Notes under the pieces: model-generated | Told to the model about the DNA's origin: nothing | The model's database searches: none | Seen by the model: the letters and a program-made list of their open reading frames with translations, nothing else | Position numbers and translations under genes: made by a program | Assembly: GCA_027036015.1 (NCBI GenBank) | Contig: JALVTH010000004.1 | Coordinates: 1 to 56,701, forward strand | Reading direction: 5' to 3' | DNA length: 56,701 nucleotides | From: Campylobacteraceae bacterium | GTDB taxonomy: Bacteria > Campylobacterota > Campylobacteria > Campylobacterales > Sulfurovaceae | In this document: positions 1 to 9,020 of the stretch, piece after piece | Position numbering within the stretch: position 1 is the first letter of the stretch | How the letters are laid out: the number at the start of each line of letters is the position of its first letter

Positions 1-809
1 ATTTAATACATCATTGTTGGTGTGCAAAATATTATCTATTTCATAGATAATTTGATTAGCTATAGATTTTTCTTTATCTGTGTCTAAAATTAAGGCATCT
101 AATGAATTTGCTAAAATATGTGCAGAAAAATTTTCTAAGAGATTTAACAATTTATTATATTGTTCATTGTTCGTTTTGATTTTAGCAGTAGTATAGTTTC
201 TTTCAAATGAAGTTAAAACATAATTTAGGTTGGCTAAATCTAAATAATCTTTTAAATCAATAATTTCATATTTACCGCTATAATTATTTTCTTCAATAGG
301 TTTTACCAATTCTTTAGCAAATAAAATTTTTTCTATTTTATCATTATCATTAAAATTTACCATAATTATATCTATTAGCATCAATAGCGGCAGGTGTCTA
401 AAACCATGCGTTACATCAATAATAAGTTTTTCATATTTGCTATTATTGATAACTTCATCAATTTTAGAGAATATATCATTAAAATTATTTTCATCTTCTA
501 TTTCTATTCCTTTATCAAGTAAAGGAACATACTCTTTTTTACACTCTAATTTTTCTAAAACTTTTTTCTGTATTGTTTGAGCTTCTTTTGTATAAATAGG
601 AATAATTTCATATTCTTCATTATATAAATCTATAAGCATAGGGAAAGTATTAACATACAAACTTTTCTTTTTTAAATATTTTTCTATAGAATCTATTTTA
701 CTTTGATATAAACTTTTATTTGTTGATTCTACAAAAACAAACTCTTTTTTGTTTTGGTCAAATCTTCCTCCAATAGTGCCAAGAATTGTAATAACTGCTT
801 TTTTTTCAT
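1..809 (-). CDS. CARF-domain CRISPR ancillary protein (Csx1/Csm6/Csx2 group), partial
   Basis: A reading frame runs from an ATG at 809 off the left edge of the window (269 codons, no stop), so the C-terminus is missing. The N-terminus has the Rossmann start AVITILGTIGG, then EIIPIYTKEA near residues 68-77 and IDVTHGFRHLP near 131-141, which is the DxTHG motif of the Csx1/Csx2/Csm6 family. These proteins sense cyclic oligoadenylate made by Cas10 through the CARF domain and usually act as a HEPN RNase. The HEPN part with its RxxxxH motif would lie off the edge, so the effector activity cannot be stated. An AAGGA ribosome site sits 6 nt before the ATG, and the gene starts 13 nt after the preceding cas gene, so it is the last visible gene of the operon. 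Confidence 0.85.
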
Positions 810-822
810 ATTATTCCTTTTT

Positions 823-2880
823 TTAATTACTCTTTCTTTTGTATAAGTTTTTATATACCTTTTGAAGTAAATTGATAAGTTTTTCTTTTTCGATATAGCT
901 CAATTTATTATTACAATATTTTTTTAATAAAGGTTCGATTTTTTCTGAATAGTTTGGTAAATCATATAAAACACTATCATAAGCAAAAAGCAAGTCTTCC
1001 TCTAACTCTTCATTATTGATATATTTGCATAAATCTCTAGAATTGTATTTTGTCTCTTTCAAACCTTTTTGAATGACCATTTGTAAAATCTCTTCCAATT
1101 TTTTATCTATCTCTTTTTTAAACCCTTCTATTTCATCTTGGCTAACTAAAGAGTGGATATTTTGGCTACATCCTTGATTTTGCCACTGTGAGTATCTTTT
1201 TAGATATTTTCTTGCTTTTTTATCCTCTACAAAATCATTTTTATCTTGACTATTTTTTAACTTTTGATATACCAATTTGCCATCATTGTTTGTATTTGCA
1301 CAAGTTGTGGCAAATAACTCTTTTATTGGATTGCTTTGTAGCCAATTTGGTTCGAAAAGTCTCATAGTTTTTTCAAACTCTTTAAGATAATGTTCTATTT
1401 CTCTATTTTCAATGGTGTTATCGCTATATTTGTGTGTAATAATAGTATTGATATTTATTTTTACTTTACCGTAACCCAAAGGTTTTGCCATACCAAGATT
1501 TAGATAGTGGGTATTGTTATTTCCATGAAGAGTTAATGCACTAATTAATGCCCCTATCTCTTGCGGTTTTAAGTTGTGAAATCTAATTTTCCCTTTAAAA
1601 GTAGTTCCGCTATCTAAAGGCTTAAATTTTGTTGCAACATTTTCATTTTCTACTCCATCATCATTTGTAGATACAGGATTTGTAGTTATGGTTTGTCTTA
1701 ATGGGTATCTTTTTCTACCGCTAATATGAGCATCTTCATCCATTAAGGTTTTGTATTTGTTTACTCTGTTTCCACTTATATCGGTTTGCTCTATGTAGTT
1801 TGGATAATAAGTTGGCTTTGGCTCACCTAAAACCTCTTCTTTTGGTTCTAGTCTTTCATAATTACTTGCTTCAAATCTAATTGTTGTAGCTTTAAAGTGA
1901 CTAAATTGCACTCTTCCTTTGAGTGCTTTTTTATCTTTTGTATATCCAAAAATAGCCTCTGCCAAATCTGTTTTATCTTGAATATCTTGTTCTATGGCTT
2001 GGGCGATTGATTTGTTGTATGGTAATTTAAATAGTTGAGTCAGCCCTATAGCTACAATTTGATTGTTTATTTTTTTATAAAATACAGGTATTTTACCGGT
2101 TTCTTTAAATTTCTTTTGCCAATACATACCATCTACAGAGTTTTCATTAAAATAGACTGTTTTAAAGTTTTCAACAACTCTTTGTGAAACTGGAATAAAA
2201 TCATTTTTTGAAATAAATATAAATTCATTTTTCTTTTTATTTATATCCCCGGTAAAAACAAGTATACCTTTTTTATCGGATGATAGATCATATTTAGCTA
2301 TTTGTTTTGGTATAGTATTGCCTCTTATGTTCATCATCTTTTTTTCCAACTTGATTGGTATCTGTTTTAAACAGCTATTCATTGCATCATATTTTTCTGA
2401 TGCACTTTTAAAGTTTTTTGTGTAAACTTTGGTAGCTTTTTTTATTTCATTAAAAGAAATTGTTATAGGTTTGCCACAATCTTCGATAACATAACTATTT
2501 TCTCTTTTTATTAAAAAACCACATCCATTAGCCTGTCCAACAAGATTTTTTCTATCAGTCATATCCCTAACACTAAATCTTTTATCATCAAAAAAGTTTA
2601 GTTTAGCAAAACCCATAATCTCCAAAACACTTCTAACTGCCCCTTTAAATGAACTTCCGGGTATATAAAACTCTTTTGCACCATTCTTATTAATAAAATG
2701 ACAAAACTCTTCATCGTTTTTGCCATCTCTTATAAATATAGGGCTTTTTGCTTCTATAGTTATCTCTATCTCTCCGCTCTCACCGTCGCTAAATGGGATG
2801 TCGTGGCTGATGTCTTCTGTCCATGGCGGATAAAATACTTTTTTGTTTAACGGAATAAAGTTATATGGTGCAGTTATCAT
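823..2880 (-). CDS. RAMP protein, Cas7 with large insertion (TIGR03986-like)
   Basis: A 685-residue RAMP-superfamily protein. The first Cas7/RAMP half has a glycine-rich FYIPGSSFKGAVR near residues 71-83. The middle has AIFGYTKDKKALKGRVQFSH near 309-328, the usual RAMP 'lFG...G.v.f' segment, then ISGRKRYPLR near 386-395. A second glycine-rich stretch, LGMAKPLGYGKVKI, lies near 462-475. Residues 490-685 look mostly helical. The long inserts between the RAMP strands and the position after the 142-residue gene match the Cas7-insertion subunit of type III-Dv complexes. It probably forms the distal backbone subunit binding the crRNA 3' region. The start has a perfect AGGAGGT 5 nt upstream and overlaps the previous stop by 4 nt. 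Confidence 0.8.
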   Translation of the reverse strand: MITAPYNFIPLNKKVFYPPWTEDISHDIPFSDGESGEIEITIEAKSPIFIRDGKNDEEFCHFINKNGAKEFYIPGSSFKGAVRSVLEIMGFAKLNFFDDKRFSVRDMTDRKNLVGQANGCGFLIKRENSYVIEDCGKPITISFNEIKKATKVYTKNFKSASEKYDAMNSCLKQIPIKLEKKMMNIRGNTIPKQIAKYDLSSDKKGILVFTGDINKKKNEFIFISKNDFIPVSQRVVENFKTVYFNENSVDGMYWQKKFKETGKIPVFYKKINNQIVAIGLTQLFKLPYNKSIAQAIEQDIQDKTDLAEAIFGYTKDKKALKGRVQFSHFKATTIRFEASNYERLEPKEEVLGEPKPTYYPNYIEQTDISGNRVNKYKTLMDEDAHISGRKRYPLRQTITTNPVSTNDDGVENENVATKFKPLDSGTTFKGKIRFHNLKPQEIGALISALTLHGNNNTHYLNLGMAKPLGYGKVKININTIITHKYSDNTIENREIEHYLKEFEKTMRLFEPNWLQSNPIKELFATTCANTNNDGKLVYQKLKNSQDKNDFVEDKKARKYLKRYSQWQNQGCSQNIHSLVSQDEIEGFKKEIDKKLEEILQMVIQKGLKETKYNSRDLCKYINNEELEEDLLFAYDSVLYDLPNYSEKIEPLLKKYCNNKLSYIEKEKLINLLQKVYKNLYKRKSN

Positions 2881-3305
2881 TTTTGACCTCCTGTTTCAAA
2901 ACCGGCAAAAAGCAGGGTTTTTGGGCTTAAAGTTTTTAATCCTAAACAAAATTCATCTTTTTCTTCTTGCCAAATTTGGGCTATTTTTGCTTTTAGTTTA
3001 TCTTTAAGAGTATAGAAACTATCTGTAGTGTTTATTTCGTCTTCTGTTAAAACTTTTTCTATCACAACCCACTTGTCATTTGTTTGACGAACCAATATAC
3101 TTTTTTTGCTCTTTGGTTCAAAGAGTGCCATTTCTAAAATATAGTTAATACCATTGTGCAAATCGCTCCAACTTGGAAGTTTAGAAGCACTTCTAAAAAT
3201 ATGCTCAATCGGGCTATCAGACATTTGGATATAGCCTTCATACTCTTCTTGCAAAGTCTCATAAAACTGTTGCAATTGCTTATCTGTTTTAATGCTATTT
3301 GTCAT
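2877..3305 (-). CDS. Small type III CRISPR protein in the csx19 position
   Basis: A 142-residue acidic protein that I do not recognise by sequence alone. It has a helical N-terminus, a central beta segment (SILVRQTNDKWVVIEKVL, about residues 70-87) and a helical lysine/glutamate-rich stretch before a C-terminal SPKTLLFAGFE. It overlaps the frameshifted double-Cas7 gene by 11 nt upstream and the 685-residue RAMP gene by 4 nt downstream, with AGGGGG before its ATG, so translation is coupled. In the type III-Dv locus this slot between cas7-2x and cas7-insertion is held by csx19, a small crRNA-binding accessory subunit. Csx19 is therefore the best guess; a Cas11-like small subunit is the alternative. 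Confidence 0.6.
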   Translation of the reverse strand: MTNSIKTDKQLQQFYETLQEEYEGYIQMSDSPIEHIFRSASKLPSWSDLHNGINYILEMALFEPKSKKSILVRQTNDKWVVIEKVLTEDEINTTDSFYTLKDKLKAKIAQIWQEEKDEFCLGLKTLSPKTLLFAGFETGGQK

Positions 3306-4630
3306 TTTTGCCCCCTTCTTTTTTCCACCCGTTTGGACTTATAAATACTCCATGTCCTCTATTTACCTTGCCACCAAGCGGCAGCCACCCTTTTGCCAAA
3401 TCATCAAGCGTTGCTTCAAAAGCTTTGACTATCGTTTCATCTTCGATATCTTGAGATAATACAATCTCTATTTTCCATGCTTCATCGTTTGCAATAACCT
3501 TTTCATTAAATAAAGCCCCCTCCATAGCACCCCCCTGTAAAGCGGTCTATCTTTACATGGTCAAATATTTTTGTTTTGTTTTCATCATAATTTTGATACA
3601 TATCCGAAAATAGCGCTTTTCCCTTACCTTCATTTTGATGCCCCTTTTCGGCACCAAAAATTGTTGCAACTGCTTTGTTATTTGTGCCTATATATTTTGA
3701 TATATCATCTACCTCATCGGCAAAAGTTTTTGTTAATCGGTTATAGTGAAACGCAACTCTATGCGATAAGGCACCTTTTAGCGAAGATACCGGAAATAAA
3801 ACCTTTTTGCTGCTAAATTCGCCTTTTTCGTTTTTCCACTCTACAACCTCTTCGGTTACGGCAACATCATCCACCTCATCATCTCCAAATCCTGCACCAA
3901 AAATAAAAAAGTTTTCAGGAACAAGCTCTATGGTATATTTTAAAGGCTTGTTTTGCGAAGAGAGTGTTATTTTTTTGCCGGCTTTTATATTTAAATCGCT
4001 TGGTTTTTCATGGTAATTTACCCCCATTTCATAACTACTCTCCAAGCATTCTACAACTTTAAACTCTCCAAACCCTTTGGTACTTCCGCCGCCTATCCTA
4101 AAAAGCGGATCGCTTAATTTGCTTAAAATATTTTGCCAAGCTTCAAAGCTTTCTTGCTCGTTATCGCTTAAAAATTCAAGCTCAAATTTAAAACGGCTTC
4201 CAGCAAATACCACTTCTTCATCAAATTTGCTTTTATCTTTAGCAACGCCTTTGTTGTTAATTGCCGTGTGTTCTCTTATAGGCAAATTGTTGTATTTTTC
4301 TAAAAATCGGCTTTGTGGCAAACCAAGTCCTTGATAAATTTTTCCATCTTCATCACAAAGGTGGGCATTGCTTACTATAATTCTAGAGCCAAACCCTTCA
4401 TCTTTTTTATTTTTTTCATAGCCAAAATATTTTTTGGCAAATTCTTTATTGAAACTATGTCTTAACACTCCTGCTATGGAGCTTCCTAAAATCATAGGCA
4501 ATCCATTCCAATCTTTTAAAACAGGTGCATCAATAAATATATCGCTTTTTCCACTTGCGGTTTTAAGTGGCGTGGTAGCCTCTATAGTGATTTGTGCCAC
4601 ATAGCGATAATTATATGTTTTTTCATCCAT
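3295..4630 (-). pseudogene. Double-RAMP Cas7-2x protein, frameshifted in a G6 tract
   Basis: Two overlapping frames (4630-3506 and 3525-3295) belong to one protein of about 444 residues. The first RAMP half has a Csm3-like SGKSDIFIDAPVLKD with candidate catalytic Asp, ILGSSIAGVLR, and glycine loop FRIGGGSTKGFGEF. The second half has FPVSSLKGALSHR and DHVKIDRFTGG. The frame then runs into CYGGGFI and a stop, while the other frame continues as AMEGALFNEKV and ends with the second glycine loop LGGKVNRGHGVF. Deleting one base from the run of six G (plus-strand C at 3530-3535) restores TGGAMEGALF, the normal RAMP sequence. The start at 4630 has AAGGAG 7 nt upstream and lies 1 nt after the csx10 stop. 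Causes could be a true mutation, +1 frameshifting or a homopolymer sequencing error. Confidence 0.8.
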
Positions 4631-4631
4631 G

Positions 4632-6086
4632 TCAAGTCTCCTTGTCATCCTCTTTTGGTGCATAGATAGAGAGAAGCTTTATAAATTTTAAATAGTTACC
4701 GTTTTCTTTTTCATTACGAATGGCCTCTATAAGAGCATTGCTCCATTTCTCTTTTGCTTTACCGTGCAGCAAAAAACCCTTAGGGTGGTTATGAACCATC
4801 TCTTCACTAAAAAGTTTCTCAAATATCTCATCATCGTTTTGAGAGATATTGCATAAAGAACGAATTTGCCCCCACTGGCTCTTTTTGTTTTTTATATCTT
4901 CTTTATGGTTTTTAATAAACACTTTTACTCTTTTGAGAAGTTCATAGTTTTGTATTTCTTCCTCTTTTTGAGCTTGCAGCCAGCTAACAAGCGGACTTGC
5001 CTCTGTTTTAATCTTGCTGTTATTTTCTTTTTTCTCTAATTTTGCAAATGGATTTTTTTGAGTAACAAATGTCGGGTTAACTATTACCTTCCCAAGCCCT
5101 TCGCTTAAATATAATCCTATGCCTTTGGATATCTTTTCTTGATAAGCTTTTACATCAAAATCTTTTGTAACCTCTATGGCTATTACACTTCCTTTATTAA
5201 TAACAAGTCTTTCAAAATCAAAATTGGCTCTAATATCAACATAAGGGGTATAGCGGCTGGTTCTTATGTAGGATTTTTCATAATCTATTTTAATTGCGCC
5301 ATTTGTTATTTGCAAAGAGTTTAAAGATGGAGTATAACTATTGATATTTAAATCATCTGTTAAGGCTAAACGGCTTAAGGCATAAAGAAAAATATAATAT
5401 TTGCCCTCTATTTGGATAGGGTTTAGCTCTTGTGTTAAATTATCATTTGGCTTATCAATGTTTTCTATTTTAATATTGCCATACTCTGCATTTCTTGCTT
5501 TGCCAAGATATTTTGCAGTTGTTAACAATTTTATAATTTTATCTTTATATTTATCATCATCAAGCTCAACGCTAAAGATCCATTCCAAATCTTTAGGTAG
5601 CGCAAAAAAACCAAACATTTGTGATTTTTTAGAGCGGCGTTTTTTTCTATCGTAAGCAGACTTTTGACGATAGATATAAGAGAGTTTTGTGAACTTACCA
5701 TCTGTGGTAAAATAGCCCTCTCTTTGCTGTTTTGGTTGTTTATTTTTTTGTATAAACTCTTCATACTCCTCTTTTGTTAAATGGTATTCGTTATAAAGTT
5801 CGTTATTTGCTTTTTCTAAAGGTGTACCTTTAGGGGCATACCAAGAAAACGGTACATGGTAAGTAATATTACCATTTATTGCTATAGTTGCATCATTAAA
5901 CCTTACCGCACCGTCATGAAATACCTTTTTAGCATCTTTATCAAAACTTTTATAATCTCTTGCAACCATGCCTAAAAAGTTAGAACCCGGAATGAAATCT
6001 AATCTTTCAATTTTTCCTTCTGTATTAGAAGAAGCATGCAAAATTACATCGCTTAAAAATGTGCATTTAAAATAGATTTTACTCAT
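4632..6086 (-). CDS. csx10: Csx10-type Cas5 RAMP with helical Cas11-like tail
   Basis: A 484-residue RAMP protein. The N-terminal Cas5-like part starts FKCTFLSDVILHASSNTEG and has the loop DFIPGSNFLGMVARDY near residues 31-46. A second RAMP-like piece around 190-330 includes KYLGKARNAEYGNIKI and a glycine-rich GIGLYLSEGLGKVIV near 323-337. From about residue 350 the sequence is helical and charged, with SQWGQIRSL and GFLLHGKAKEKW, as in Csx10 C-termini, consistent with a Cas11-like small-subunit domain. In type III-D complexes this group caps the crRNA 5' tag. GGAGGAG precedes the ATG by 4 nt, and the start overlaps the cas7 stop by 8 nt. In III-Dv the equivalent segment is fused to the upstream Cas7; here it is separate. 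Confidence 0.8.
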   Translation of the reverse strand: MSKIYFKCTFLSDVILHASSNTEGKIERLDFIPGSNFLGMVARDYKSFDKDAKKVFHDGAVRFNDATIAINGNITYHVPFSWYAPKGTPLEKANNELYNEYHLTKEEYEEFIQKNKQPKQQREGYFTTDGKFTKLSYIYRQKSAYDRKKRRSKKSQMFGFFALPKDLEWIFSVELDDDKYKDKIIKLLTTAKYLGKARNAEYGNIKIENIDKPNDNLTQELNPIQIEGKYYIFLYALSRLALTDDLNINSYTPSLNSLQITNGAIKIDYEKSYIRTSRYTPYVDIRANFDFERLVINKGSVIAIEVTKDFDVKAYQEKISKGIGLYLSEGLGKVIVNPTFVTQKNPFAKLEKKENNSKIKTEASPLVSWLQAQKEEEIQNYELLKRVKVFIKNHKEDIKNKKSQWGQIRSLCNISQNDDEIFEKLFSEEMVHNHPKGFLLHGKAKEKWSNALIEAIRNEKENGNYLKFIKLLSIYAPKEDDKET

Positions 6087-6669
6087 TTTTCTCCTCCTTT
6101 ATCTCAACCACCTCAACTTCACATCTTCCCCAGCCTCTTGTGCGGTTTAATCCAATTCTTTTAACCTGCCCAAGAGCCTTTTGCATCAAATCTTTATATT
6201 GCTCCGGAATATGTAAAATTTTTGCTGTTAAAGTTAGTGGTACAACTGCTTCTATCTCTCTTAAAGAGCTGGTTTTTGCAATACCATTTTTTTCTATTGC
6301 AGTTGAGGCAATGGAGTGGTAAAGATATTGGCTTAACTCTTCATCTATTTTCTCTTTTAAAGTTGCATTTGTAAAGTAGCATTTGCCTTCTCTATTTCTG
6401 TTTGGTTTATCTAAAACAGTTTTATCATAACCAAACTCCCCTTCATGGGTATTATAACCAAAACACTCATTTACAAACTGTTCATTCCCAAATGTTTCTG
6501 CCATTTCACGAATATGTCCTTTGAGTGTTTTGCCGGGGATAAATGGCAGATTGTTTTTATCTCTTGCAACCATTGCATCAAGACGGCTTCCGCCGCTGCT
6601 ACCTGAACTGCAGTGCCAATAAGTAAAAAATTTTATTTCTAATTCAAAAGTGTAATTGCTATTACTCAT
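6079..6669 (-). CDS. cas7: Cas7-family RAMP protein (Csm3-like backbone subunit)
   Basis: A single-RAMP protein of 196 residues from the ATG at 6669, chosen over an in-frame ATG at 6708 because AGAGGAG lies 6 nt upstream and the start overlaps the cas10 stop by 8 nt. Visible features: the beta strand NYTFELEIKFFTYW, a loop GGSRLDAMVARD with an Asp at the usual position of the target-RNA-cleaving Asp of Csm3, LPFIPGKTLKGHIREM, and a C-terminal glycine loop KRIGLNRTRGWGRCEV. It should bind the crRNA guide and cut target RNA. It is the unfused counterpart of the Cas7 domain of III-Dv Cas7-5-11. Confidence 0.85.
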   Translation of the reverse strand: MSNSNYTFELEIKFFTYWHCSSGSSGGSRLDAMVARDKNNLPFIPGKTLKGHIREMAETFGNEQFVNECFGYNTHEGEFGYDKTVLDKPNRNREGKCYFTNATLKEKIDEELSQYLYHSIASTAIEKNGIAKTSSLREIEAVVPLTLTAKILHIPEQYKDLMQKALGQVKRIGLNRTRGWGRCEVEVVEIKEEKNE

Positions 6670-8170
6670 ATTTTGCTCCTCTAATAGAGAGATACGAAAT
6701 AATGTCATATATCGGTGTTGCCTGTTTTACAAAAGGGTTTTGCAAAGAGAGTTTTTCATGCAATCTACTCAATGCATCGTCAAGTTTTTCTTTTTGTTTT
6801 TTATCTAATACAGCAACAATTCTTTCCATAAAAAGCTCTGCATATTCTATATTTTTATGCACCTCTCCTACCCAAGTTCTAAACTTTCCTCTTGGTATAT
6901 CATCACTTCCAAATTTTTCTGCGGCATTTAAAAAGTCATCTATCGATGGGGCTTTATTGGTATAGTATGGAGCAAATTGCAATTTGTAGCCCTCTTTAGT
7001 TGTTAATTCATTCTTTATATAGTTGTTATAATCGATAAAATAAGAGCTTTGAACATTATGGAACATTAAACATGAAGCTTTTCTATCTGATATTTTTTTA
7101 GCTTCCGAACATAATGCTTCTGCCAAATCCACTGCATAATGAAATGGAAACTTTTCATTACAAAAAGCAATACCGGCACAAGCGGTTAAGCCGTTTTCAA
7201 ACTCTTTTAAACCAAACTCTTTGGCATTCTCTTCAAAGTTTTTTTTCGTAAGCTCTTCAAATTTTTTTAGATAAATATTTGCAAACTCTATCGCTTCATC
7301 TGCGTTACATACAAAAGTAACATCATCTCCACCAATAATAATTGGACGAAACGGGATATTTTCGAAATTTTTATCTTGTTCGTATTTTTTAAAAACTTTC
7401 TCATAAGCAATTTTTACCGCTTCTATAGTTGAAGACTCTATAGCTTTTGAGATGGTTTTATAAGCATCTTGTATTTCTGTTGGGTTTTTGTTTTGCTCTA
7501 AAAGGGAATTTTTCATCTGTTGTAGCAAAAGCCCCATTTTATTGCCATCGGCATGGATGATAGCCACTTTATTTTTCTTGTTAGATATGCTTTCCATATC
7601 TATATCAAATTTTGAATATAACTTATTAGGAATTTCTAATTTTTTAAGCAGCATTTCAAAGTGAGCATCATCGGCATCTGCCATTTTTTGCCATGATCCT
7701 TTATCGTATTGGGTATCATGCTTTATCTCATATAAAGGTTTCCCAGTCCTTCCACACTGTTTTAATATATTAAACCTAGCGTCCAAAGGATATGCAGCTT
7801 TATTTCTTGCATAAATTAATTTTCTTTCTAACTCTTCAACTATGTCTAAATATTCTTTACCGCTGCAATTTGCGTTATACTCAACAACAGCTTGGGAAAC
7901 TGTAATACCGTAAGCTCTTTGCATAATATATTTAGGAAAATATTTAACCATAAATTCTAAATCTTGAATATCTTCAAATAAAAGCCGTATATTCCCGCCT
8001 GCATTTCTTAAAATTTTATATTTTTCTTCGCCATTAAAAAAGTTTTTAATAAATTGCTCTGAAACAAACCACTCTATTAAATTGCTAGCTCCTGCAATCT
8101 CTTTGAGTTTATTGGTTTCAAAAATAAACCCCTGTATCCCTTGAATACTTGCCCCGTATAAATAATTCAT
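6662..8170 (-). CDS. cas10: Cas10 large subunit, short, GGDD present, no HD domain
   Basis: A 502-residue Cas10/Cmr2-type protein. It begins directly with the palm region (YGASIQGIQGFIFETNKLKE, residues 5-24), so the usual N-terminal HD nuclease is absent. A second palm contains IIHADGNKMG (205-214) and the cyclase motif IIGGDDVTFV (278-287, GGDD at 280-283), followed by the C-terminal helical part. An intact GGDD suggests cyclic oligoadenylate synthesis, which fits the CARF gene at the operon end. Loss of HD implies no Cas10 DNase activity. AAAGGAG precedes the ATG by 7 nt. The length is well below typical HD-containing Cas10 (roughly 750-1000 residues). Confidence 0.88.
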   Translation of the reverse strand: MNYLYGASIQGIQGFIFETNKLKEIAGASNLIEWFVSEQFIKNFFNGEEKYKILRNAGGNIRLLFEDIQDLEFMVKYFPKYIMQRAYGITVSQAVVEYNANCSGKEYLDIVEELERKLIYARNKAAYPLDARFNILKQCGRTGKPLYEIKHDTQYDKGSWQKMADADDAHFEMLLKKLEIPNKLYSKFDIDMESISNKKNKVAIIHADGNKMGLLLQQMKNSLLEQNKNPTEIQDAYKTISKAIESSTIEAVKIAYEKVFKKYEQDKNFENIPFRPIIIGGDDVTFVCNADEAIEFANIYLKKFEELTKKNFEENAKEFGLKEFENGLTACAGIAFCNEKFPFHYAVDLAEALCSEAKKISDRKASCLMFHNVQSSYFIDYNNYIKNELTTKEGYKLQFAPYYTNKAPSIDDFLNAAEKFGSDDIPRGKFRTWVGEVHKNIEYAELFMERIVAVLDKKQKEKLDDALSRLHEKLSLQNPFVKQATPIYDIISYLSIRGAKYE

Positions 8171-8183
8171 AAACAGTCTCCTT

Positions 8184-8996
8184 TTAAATTAAATCCTCTA
8201 CTTTGATTTTTCCAAGTCCAAAGGTGTTGAGTTTACCAATACCGCTGATTTGTCCATATTGAAGCAAGCGGTAGGTTTGGGGTGTTAAATTATTTAAAAT
8301 AACTTCTCCCATAATGCCTCCTATTTGCATTTTGGTTTTTTGGCGGTTGGAATAGCGTCCAACATCTACCATAAAAAGATTTTTACTAACAATTTGTGGG
8401 AAAGTTTCTATTTTTTCTTCTTTTTGAGAGTAAAACTTTTGTTTTTGCAAAATAGATAAAAAGATATCTTTACTCTCAAGTTTTAAAGCTGTTAAGAGTT
8501 TTCCTTGTTTTTTTGCGCGAAACTGGGTTTGAAACGTTAGTTTTACAACAGGGCTAAAGGAGCTATTTTCAAATTTTTTAATTACTGGGCTAAACTTTTT
8601 AAATTCTTTATTTTCATAAATAAGGCGATTTTCATGATAGATTTTAAAATTTTGCGTTGTAACTCTTTCTTTGCCAAGCCCTTTTTTGCGAAAGAGTTTT
8701 TCAATTGCGCTTAAGATATAAGGGCTTTTATTGGCGGCATCATTAAAAAGATAAAGAGCAAAATTTACATAAGGGCTGTTTGGCAAAAAATCCAAGCGAA
8801 AATTATGAAAGGTGCTTTTTGTTTCGTAAAACTCATAAAAGAGGCAATTATTTTTAGCAAAACAATTTTCACACTTAAAAGAAGGATTAATGCAAACTAC
8901 CTCTTTTAAAGCAGGACCTAAAGCTCCTCTAACCATTGAACCCATAAACTTTGGTGCTTTTATATCGCTTGTAATAAAAAATGTTGTATAATCCAC
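8184..8996 (-). CDS. cas6: Cas6 pre-crRNA endoribonuclease
   Basis: A 270-residue RAMP endoribonuclease of the Cas6 C-terminal-domain type, first gene of the operon. Near the N-terminus are MGSMVRGALG and a cysteine cluster (Cys 35, 42, 45 and 51, numbered from the GTG), a pattern common in this Cas6 subgroup. The C-terminus has the glycine-rich GIGKLNTFGLGKIKVEDLI. It would cut the CRISPR transcript into crRNAs; no array is visible in this window, so the target repeat is unknown. The start is ambiguous: GTG at 8996 has AAAGG 7 nt upstream, while TTG at 8999 has only 4 nt spacing; I prefer the GTG. Confidence 0.85.
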   Translation of the reverse strand: MDYTTFFITSDIKAPKFMGSMVRGALGPALKEVVCINPSFKCENCFAKNNCLFYEFYETKSTFHNFRLDFLPNSPYVNFALYLFNDAANKSPYILSAIEKLFRKKGLGKERVTTQNFKIYHENRLIYENKEFKKFSPVIKKFENSSFSPVVKLTFQTQFRAKKQGKLLTALKLESKDIFLSILQKQKFYSQKEEKIETFPQIVSKNLFMVDVGRYSNRQKTKMQIGGIMGEVILNNLTPQTYRLLQYGQISGIGKLNTFGLGKIKVEDLI

Positions 8997-9020
8997 CAAT
9001 ATGCCTTTAGAAAAAACTTT

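Follow-up and report, generated by a model that had tools for sequence, protein, structure and literature searches.

Among described CRISPR effectors, the closest counterpart of the locus studied here is the type III-Dv complex of Synechocystis, a complex of similar architecture in which each subunit is present once, with none repeated, and in which D33 and D246 of Cas7-2x are catalytic (PMC11026444). For reading frames interrupted in a single lineage, the authors of GeneTack (Antonov et al. 2013) anticipate that singleton frameshifts with BLASTp confirmation will mostly reflect sequencing errors (PMC3711429). In Campylobacter, poly-G tracts are a common means of phase variation; a cut-off of 7 has been used, and switching has been shown for tracts of 8 or more (PMC6321876). 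When homopolymers are transcribed in E. coli and Buchnera, the insertions that arise all fall in A/T runs (PMC5574713).

The window analyzed here is the whole of a 56,701-base contig (C4) from a 1.69-Mb, 79-contig genome, and the first 9 kb carry, on the minus strand, a type III-D CRISPR operon in which cas10 with its GGDD motif, cas7, cas5/csx10, cas7-2x, csx19, and the cas7 with an insertion (cas7-insertion) co-occur (Table 1). The order of cas10, the double-Cas7 gene, csx19, and cas7-insertion is identical to that in Synechocystis, which also has accessory csx1 and cas6 genes nearby, but cas7 and cas5 are separate genes here whereas Synechocystis has a cas7-cas5-cas11 fusion (PMC11026444). 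A further difference is that cas7-2x and the start of csx1 are out of frame in our genome. We consider the extra G in cas7-2x to be most probably a genuine recent inactivation of the III-D module (probability about 0.57), a loss of function that did not figure among the three options of the initial annotation and that we rate first.

Table 1. Features of the type III-D operon and of its two frame breaks, in window coordinates
Feature	Positions	Strand	Family match
cas6, intact	8184-8999	-	
cas10 of III-D with GGDD, intact	6662-8170	-	
cas7 of III-D, intact	6079-6675	-	
cas5 of III-D (Csx10-like), intact	4632-6086	-	
cas7-2x 5' part, 374 aa (367 native and 7 out-of-frame residues), then stop	3506-4630	-	PADLOC PDLC02107, 2-354 of 426
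cas7-2x 3' part, next frame, 77 residues past the shared TGG	3295-3534	-	PDLC02107, 350-417 of 426; Pfam RAMPs
G6 run throwing cas7-2x out of frame	3530-3535	-	
Internal ATG, potential 76-aa C-terminal fragment; not conserved	3523-3525	-	
csx19 / cas11-like (TIGR04423), intact	2877-3305	-	
cas7 with insertion (TIGR03986), intact	823-2880	-	
csx1 (CARF-HEPN) coding frame, cut by contig end, no in-frame start near 5' end	1-810	-	
ATG at the start of csx1, then A8; not in the csx1 frame; includes A AAA AAG	798-808	-	

The run that splits cas7-2x, reported in the initial annotation, was confirmed at exactly 3530-3535, where the plus strand reads C6 and the minus strand G6; G6 is not rare in the window, with 4 matches against 3.3 expected. 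Read from the ATG at 4630, cas7-2x is not a single open frame: 367 native residues ending in DRFTGG are followed by CYGGGFI and a stop at 3506-3508, giving a product of 374 aa whose open reading frame ends ...DRFTGGCYGGGFI before the stop. The next frame encodes GGAMEGALFNEK...LPLGGKVNRGHGVF, with a stop ending at 3295, and the two join as FTGGAMEGALF into one protein of 444 residues. The predicted join and full length of about 444 residues held, in that reading through one base past the tract (in a translation that used ACAG=T and acted only at the tract) yields a continuous protein with 442 of the 444 residues retained. The gene had also been correctly identified. A match to Cas7_IIId (PADLOC PDLC02107) runs the length of the family across both frames; the 3' part matches on its own (E 2e-21), as well as to the C-terminal portion of Pfam RAMPs. 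Since the two pieces match adjoining stretches of one family, we are dealing with a real broken gene and not a chance pair of open reading frames.

What lies beyond the break is the end of the second Cas7 domain, as had been stated, but the loss amounts to 77 native residues, about a third of that domain (Pfam positions ~131-188 of 189) and not the quarter first given; the 3' part carries the GALF motif and a PLGGKVNRGHG loop. Both Cas7 domains keep their putative catalytic aspartates in the truncated product (D30; D250/D251), residues that lie upstream of the break and to which alignment with Csm3 and the III-Dv study (PMC11026444) would assign this role. A PDB sequence search with the 5' part recovered relatives of Csm3/Cmr4/Cas7-11 type and one III-D Cas7 paralogue; the same search with the tail gave nothing convincing. 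AlphaFold models of the read-through protein had a mean pLDDT of 31 and 43 and were set aside.

To place the break in an evolutionary context, cas7-2x was searched for in 60 relatives and in 397 genomes from the class, with one match added from genome_contigs. This gave 28 further cas7-2x-like loci in which a gene of full length covers the break site, mostly 40-60% identical along their length, and in all 28 the joined frame is uninterrupted at this position. The glycine codons at the site vary among these relatives, with G runs of at most 5 and mostly 2-4, and neither the tract nor the break occurs in any of them; the codon corresponding to the internal ATG specifies Met in 3 of the 28 and mostly Ile in the others. 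Unbroken relatives, together with a tract and an internal ATG that are not conserved, count against phase variation at the tract, programmed frameshifting, and a naturally split gene. Our gene thus has a broken frame while intact orthologues exist, as is the case for pseudogenes. The scan of genome_contigs contributed one distant relative, in a Helicobacteraceae assembly, from which we take our organism to be probably a member of the Campylobacterota. Matches on plasmids were likewise distant, and viral_contigs, scanned for either tract length, gave no match.

Two further loci of the class are without most of cas7-2x through deletions that fused the remainder to neighboring genes, so loss of cas7-2x does happen in this class. 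At one, on an 846-kb contig (L174 3203-4009; G376:C50), cas7 is joined in frame with the final ~108 residues of cas7-2x, all that remains of that gene, and no match to cas5 was found at the locus; this fusion is a natural chimera or a remnant of a III-D operon. At the other (L175 2879-3664; G367:C58), where csx19 gave no match, an in-frame fusion links the initial ~65 residues of cas7-2x with cas7-insertion.

The initial annotation took the rest of the operon to be intact, which is incorrect, as a second break lies at the start of csx1. The csx1 frame opens at the first codon after a stop and lacks a start codon (ATG, GTG, or TTG) in frame near its 5' end; its sole plausible start, the ATG at 808, reads ATG-A8-GCA and is out of frame. 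Relatives of csx1 begin in frame with MKRAVITILG or MKKAVITILG, and the csx1 family model matches from its position one, immediately past the A tract. The A AAA AAG at this start is a dnaX-type slippery heptamer. The operon therefore contains two frame breaks within 2.7 kb, both at homopolymers. A search of the assembly with the C-terminal half of a relative did not recover the HEPN half of csx1; this search had no positive control and so does not prove absence.

The homopolymer quality of the assembly was assessed in sampled stretches covering ~25% of the genome (~430 kb) and in 20 further contig starts. An ab initio detector of frameshifts based on codon usage missed the known break in cas7-2x and was noisy in GC-richer controls; it was dropped and replaced by tests based on homology and on tracts. 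Over the ~124 kb with protein homologues, cas7-2x was the only homopolymer frameshift, and the one other place flagged, which contains no homopolymer, resembles an antisense match. The tract test (A/T of 7 or more, G/C of 6 or more) covered 434 kb, in which ~594 sense tracts pass through open frames; its sensitivity to simulated one-base indels was 57%, and the eight other sites it flagged appeared by eye to be ordinary gene starts, overlaps, or antisense. In the 33 contig starts (265 tracts, 63% sensitivity) 12 sites were flagged; a full reading of four of them showed natural gene junctions, and the rest were judged by eye. No other homopolymer-broken gene was found outside the operon in any of these three samples, and among the G6 and G7 tracts in long open reading frames of the listed loci only that of cas7-2x breaks its gene, the others being in frame. 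We conclude that the assembly is not generally prone to homopolymer errors and that the two breaks in the operon stand out, in a comparison that is post hoc and in which a break of the csx1 type falls outside what the tract test scores.

Two explanations carry most of the weight. It is the clean homopolymers elsewhere, together with the second broken gene in the operon, that lead us to favor a real and recent inactivation over a sequencing error, at odds of roughly two to one. Under the former, a slippage mutation of one base would have added a G to the tract, leaving Cas7-2x with 367 native residues and lacking the last third of its second domain, and, if every subunit is single as in the similar Synechocystis complex, this loss should halt assembly or target cleavage. 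On the simplest reading the III-D module was released from selection only recently, while a separate CRISPR locus is kept in the genome, and the youth of the event would explain why the broken tail appears undamaged. Against inactivation stand six other cas genes free of further damage, and the fact that each lesion alters a homopolymer by one or two bases, as sequencing errors also do. The competing explanation is an error of sequencing or assembly at homopolymers close to a contig end with poor support, the cell's own cas7-2x (and csx1) being intact. The break is a singleton at a site where 28 relatives are unbroken, the tail is fully conserved in its correct frame, and both anomalies are homopolymers near the contig end, which falls inside csx1. 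The G tract lies 3.5 kb away from this end and the A tract 0.8 kb away, and the remainder of csx1 was not found; the proximity of the end to both tracts and the missing half of csx1 suggest that this end may be thinly covered. No other broken homopolymer turned up in the sample, 33 contig starts included, which weakens the case for error. Like the singletons and recent pseudogenes treated by Antonov et al., cas7-2x has a one-base break confined to one lineage, confirmed by homologues, and without a conserved recoding signal, but here two breaks fall in a single operon and the rest of the assembly is clean (PMC3711429). We keep error at about one chance in three in view of the nearby contig end, the half of csx1 that was not recovered, and what is expected of singletons.

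The remaining possibilities would give the tract or the broken frame a function. Recoding could restore full-length proteins if ribosomes slipped by +1 on the G run, or if transcription slipped there, and by -1 slippage or insertion of an A on the A8 of csx1, and both GGG-GGG in cas7-2x and the A AAA AAG heptamer in csx1 are present. A GGG-GGG sequence allows the P-site glycine tRNA to re-pair after a +1 shift. However, the tract, the frame break, and the heptamer are not conserved among relatives, the break and its slippery motif occurring in 0 of 28, and the study of E. coli and Buchnera concludes that G/C runs are not prone to transcriptional slippage (PMC5574713); the +1 frameshifting that had been suggested is accordingly disfavored and in our judgment highly improbable. 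We think as little of reversible phase variation, also proposed earlier, in which replication slippage at the G tract would turn the effector on and off. A mononucleotide tract inside a coding region of a probable Campylobacterota genome does recall the poly-G phase-variable genes of Campylobacter, but this tract of six G is below the cut-off of 7, is missing from all 28 relatives, and lies in a genome whose longest G run is 7 (PMC6321876). Still more doubtful is a split Cas7-2x, in which re-initiation at the ATG at 3525 would yield pieces of 374 and 76 aa that cooperate. This ATG lies ~17 nt upstream of the premature stop and is preceded by AGGGGGGTG, a sequence able to pair with the anti-Shine-Dalgarno if two G-U pairs are allowed. 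The G-rich stretch nonetheless codes for the TGGA motif, and with Met in so few relatives the separate C-terminal product that had been envisaged finds no comparative support. It is just as improbable that Cas7-2x and Csx1 are kept out of frame so that a complex with potential self-toxicity is made in no more than very small amounts, through slippage or re-initiation. We see no sign of a switch or of programmed frameshifting, and apart from its two breaks the operon is an ordinary type III-D system.

Should the breaks prove real, every cas gene would still be recognizable and automated surveys of defense systems would count the genome as defended, but it ought to be left out of tallies of working type III-D systems; if they are errors, they counsel caution about contig ends. 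Either outcome teaches little new about CRISPR, and no novelty is claimed. Even with the III-D module inactivated, adaptive immunity need not be lost. Within the window the operon has neither adaptation genes nor an array beside it, but another contig of the genome carries a separate locus with cas3, cas4, cas1, cas2, and an array of 18 repeats, the names cas3, cas4, and cas2 being ones we assigned from the sequences. Between the cas4 region and cas1-cas2 at that locus there is a RhuM/Fic-like open reading frame (L125 3496-4461; G000:C42) that adjoins the array, the repeat of which is GTCGAACCCAAACAATAGTTGTATTGAAAT.
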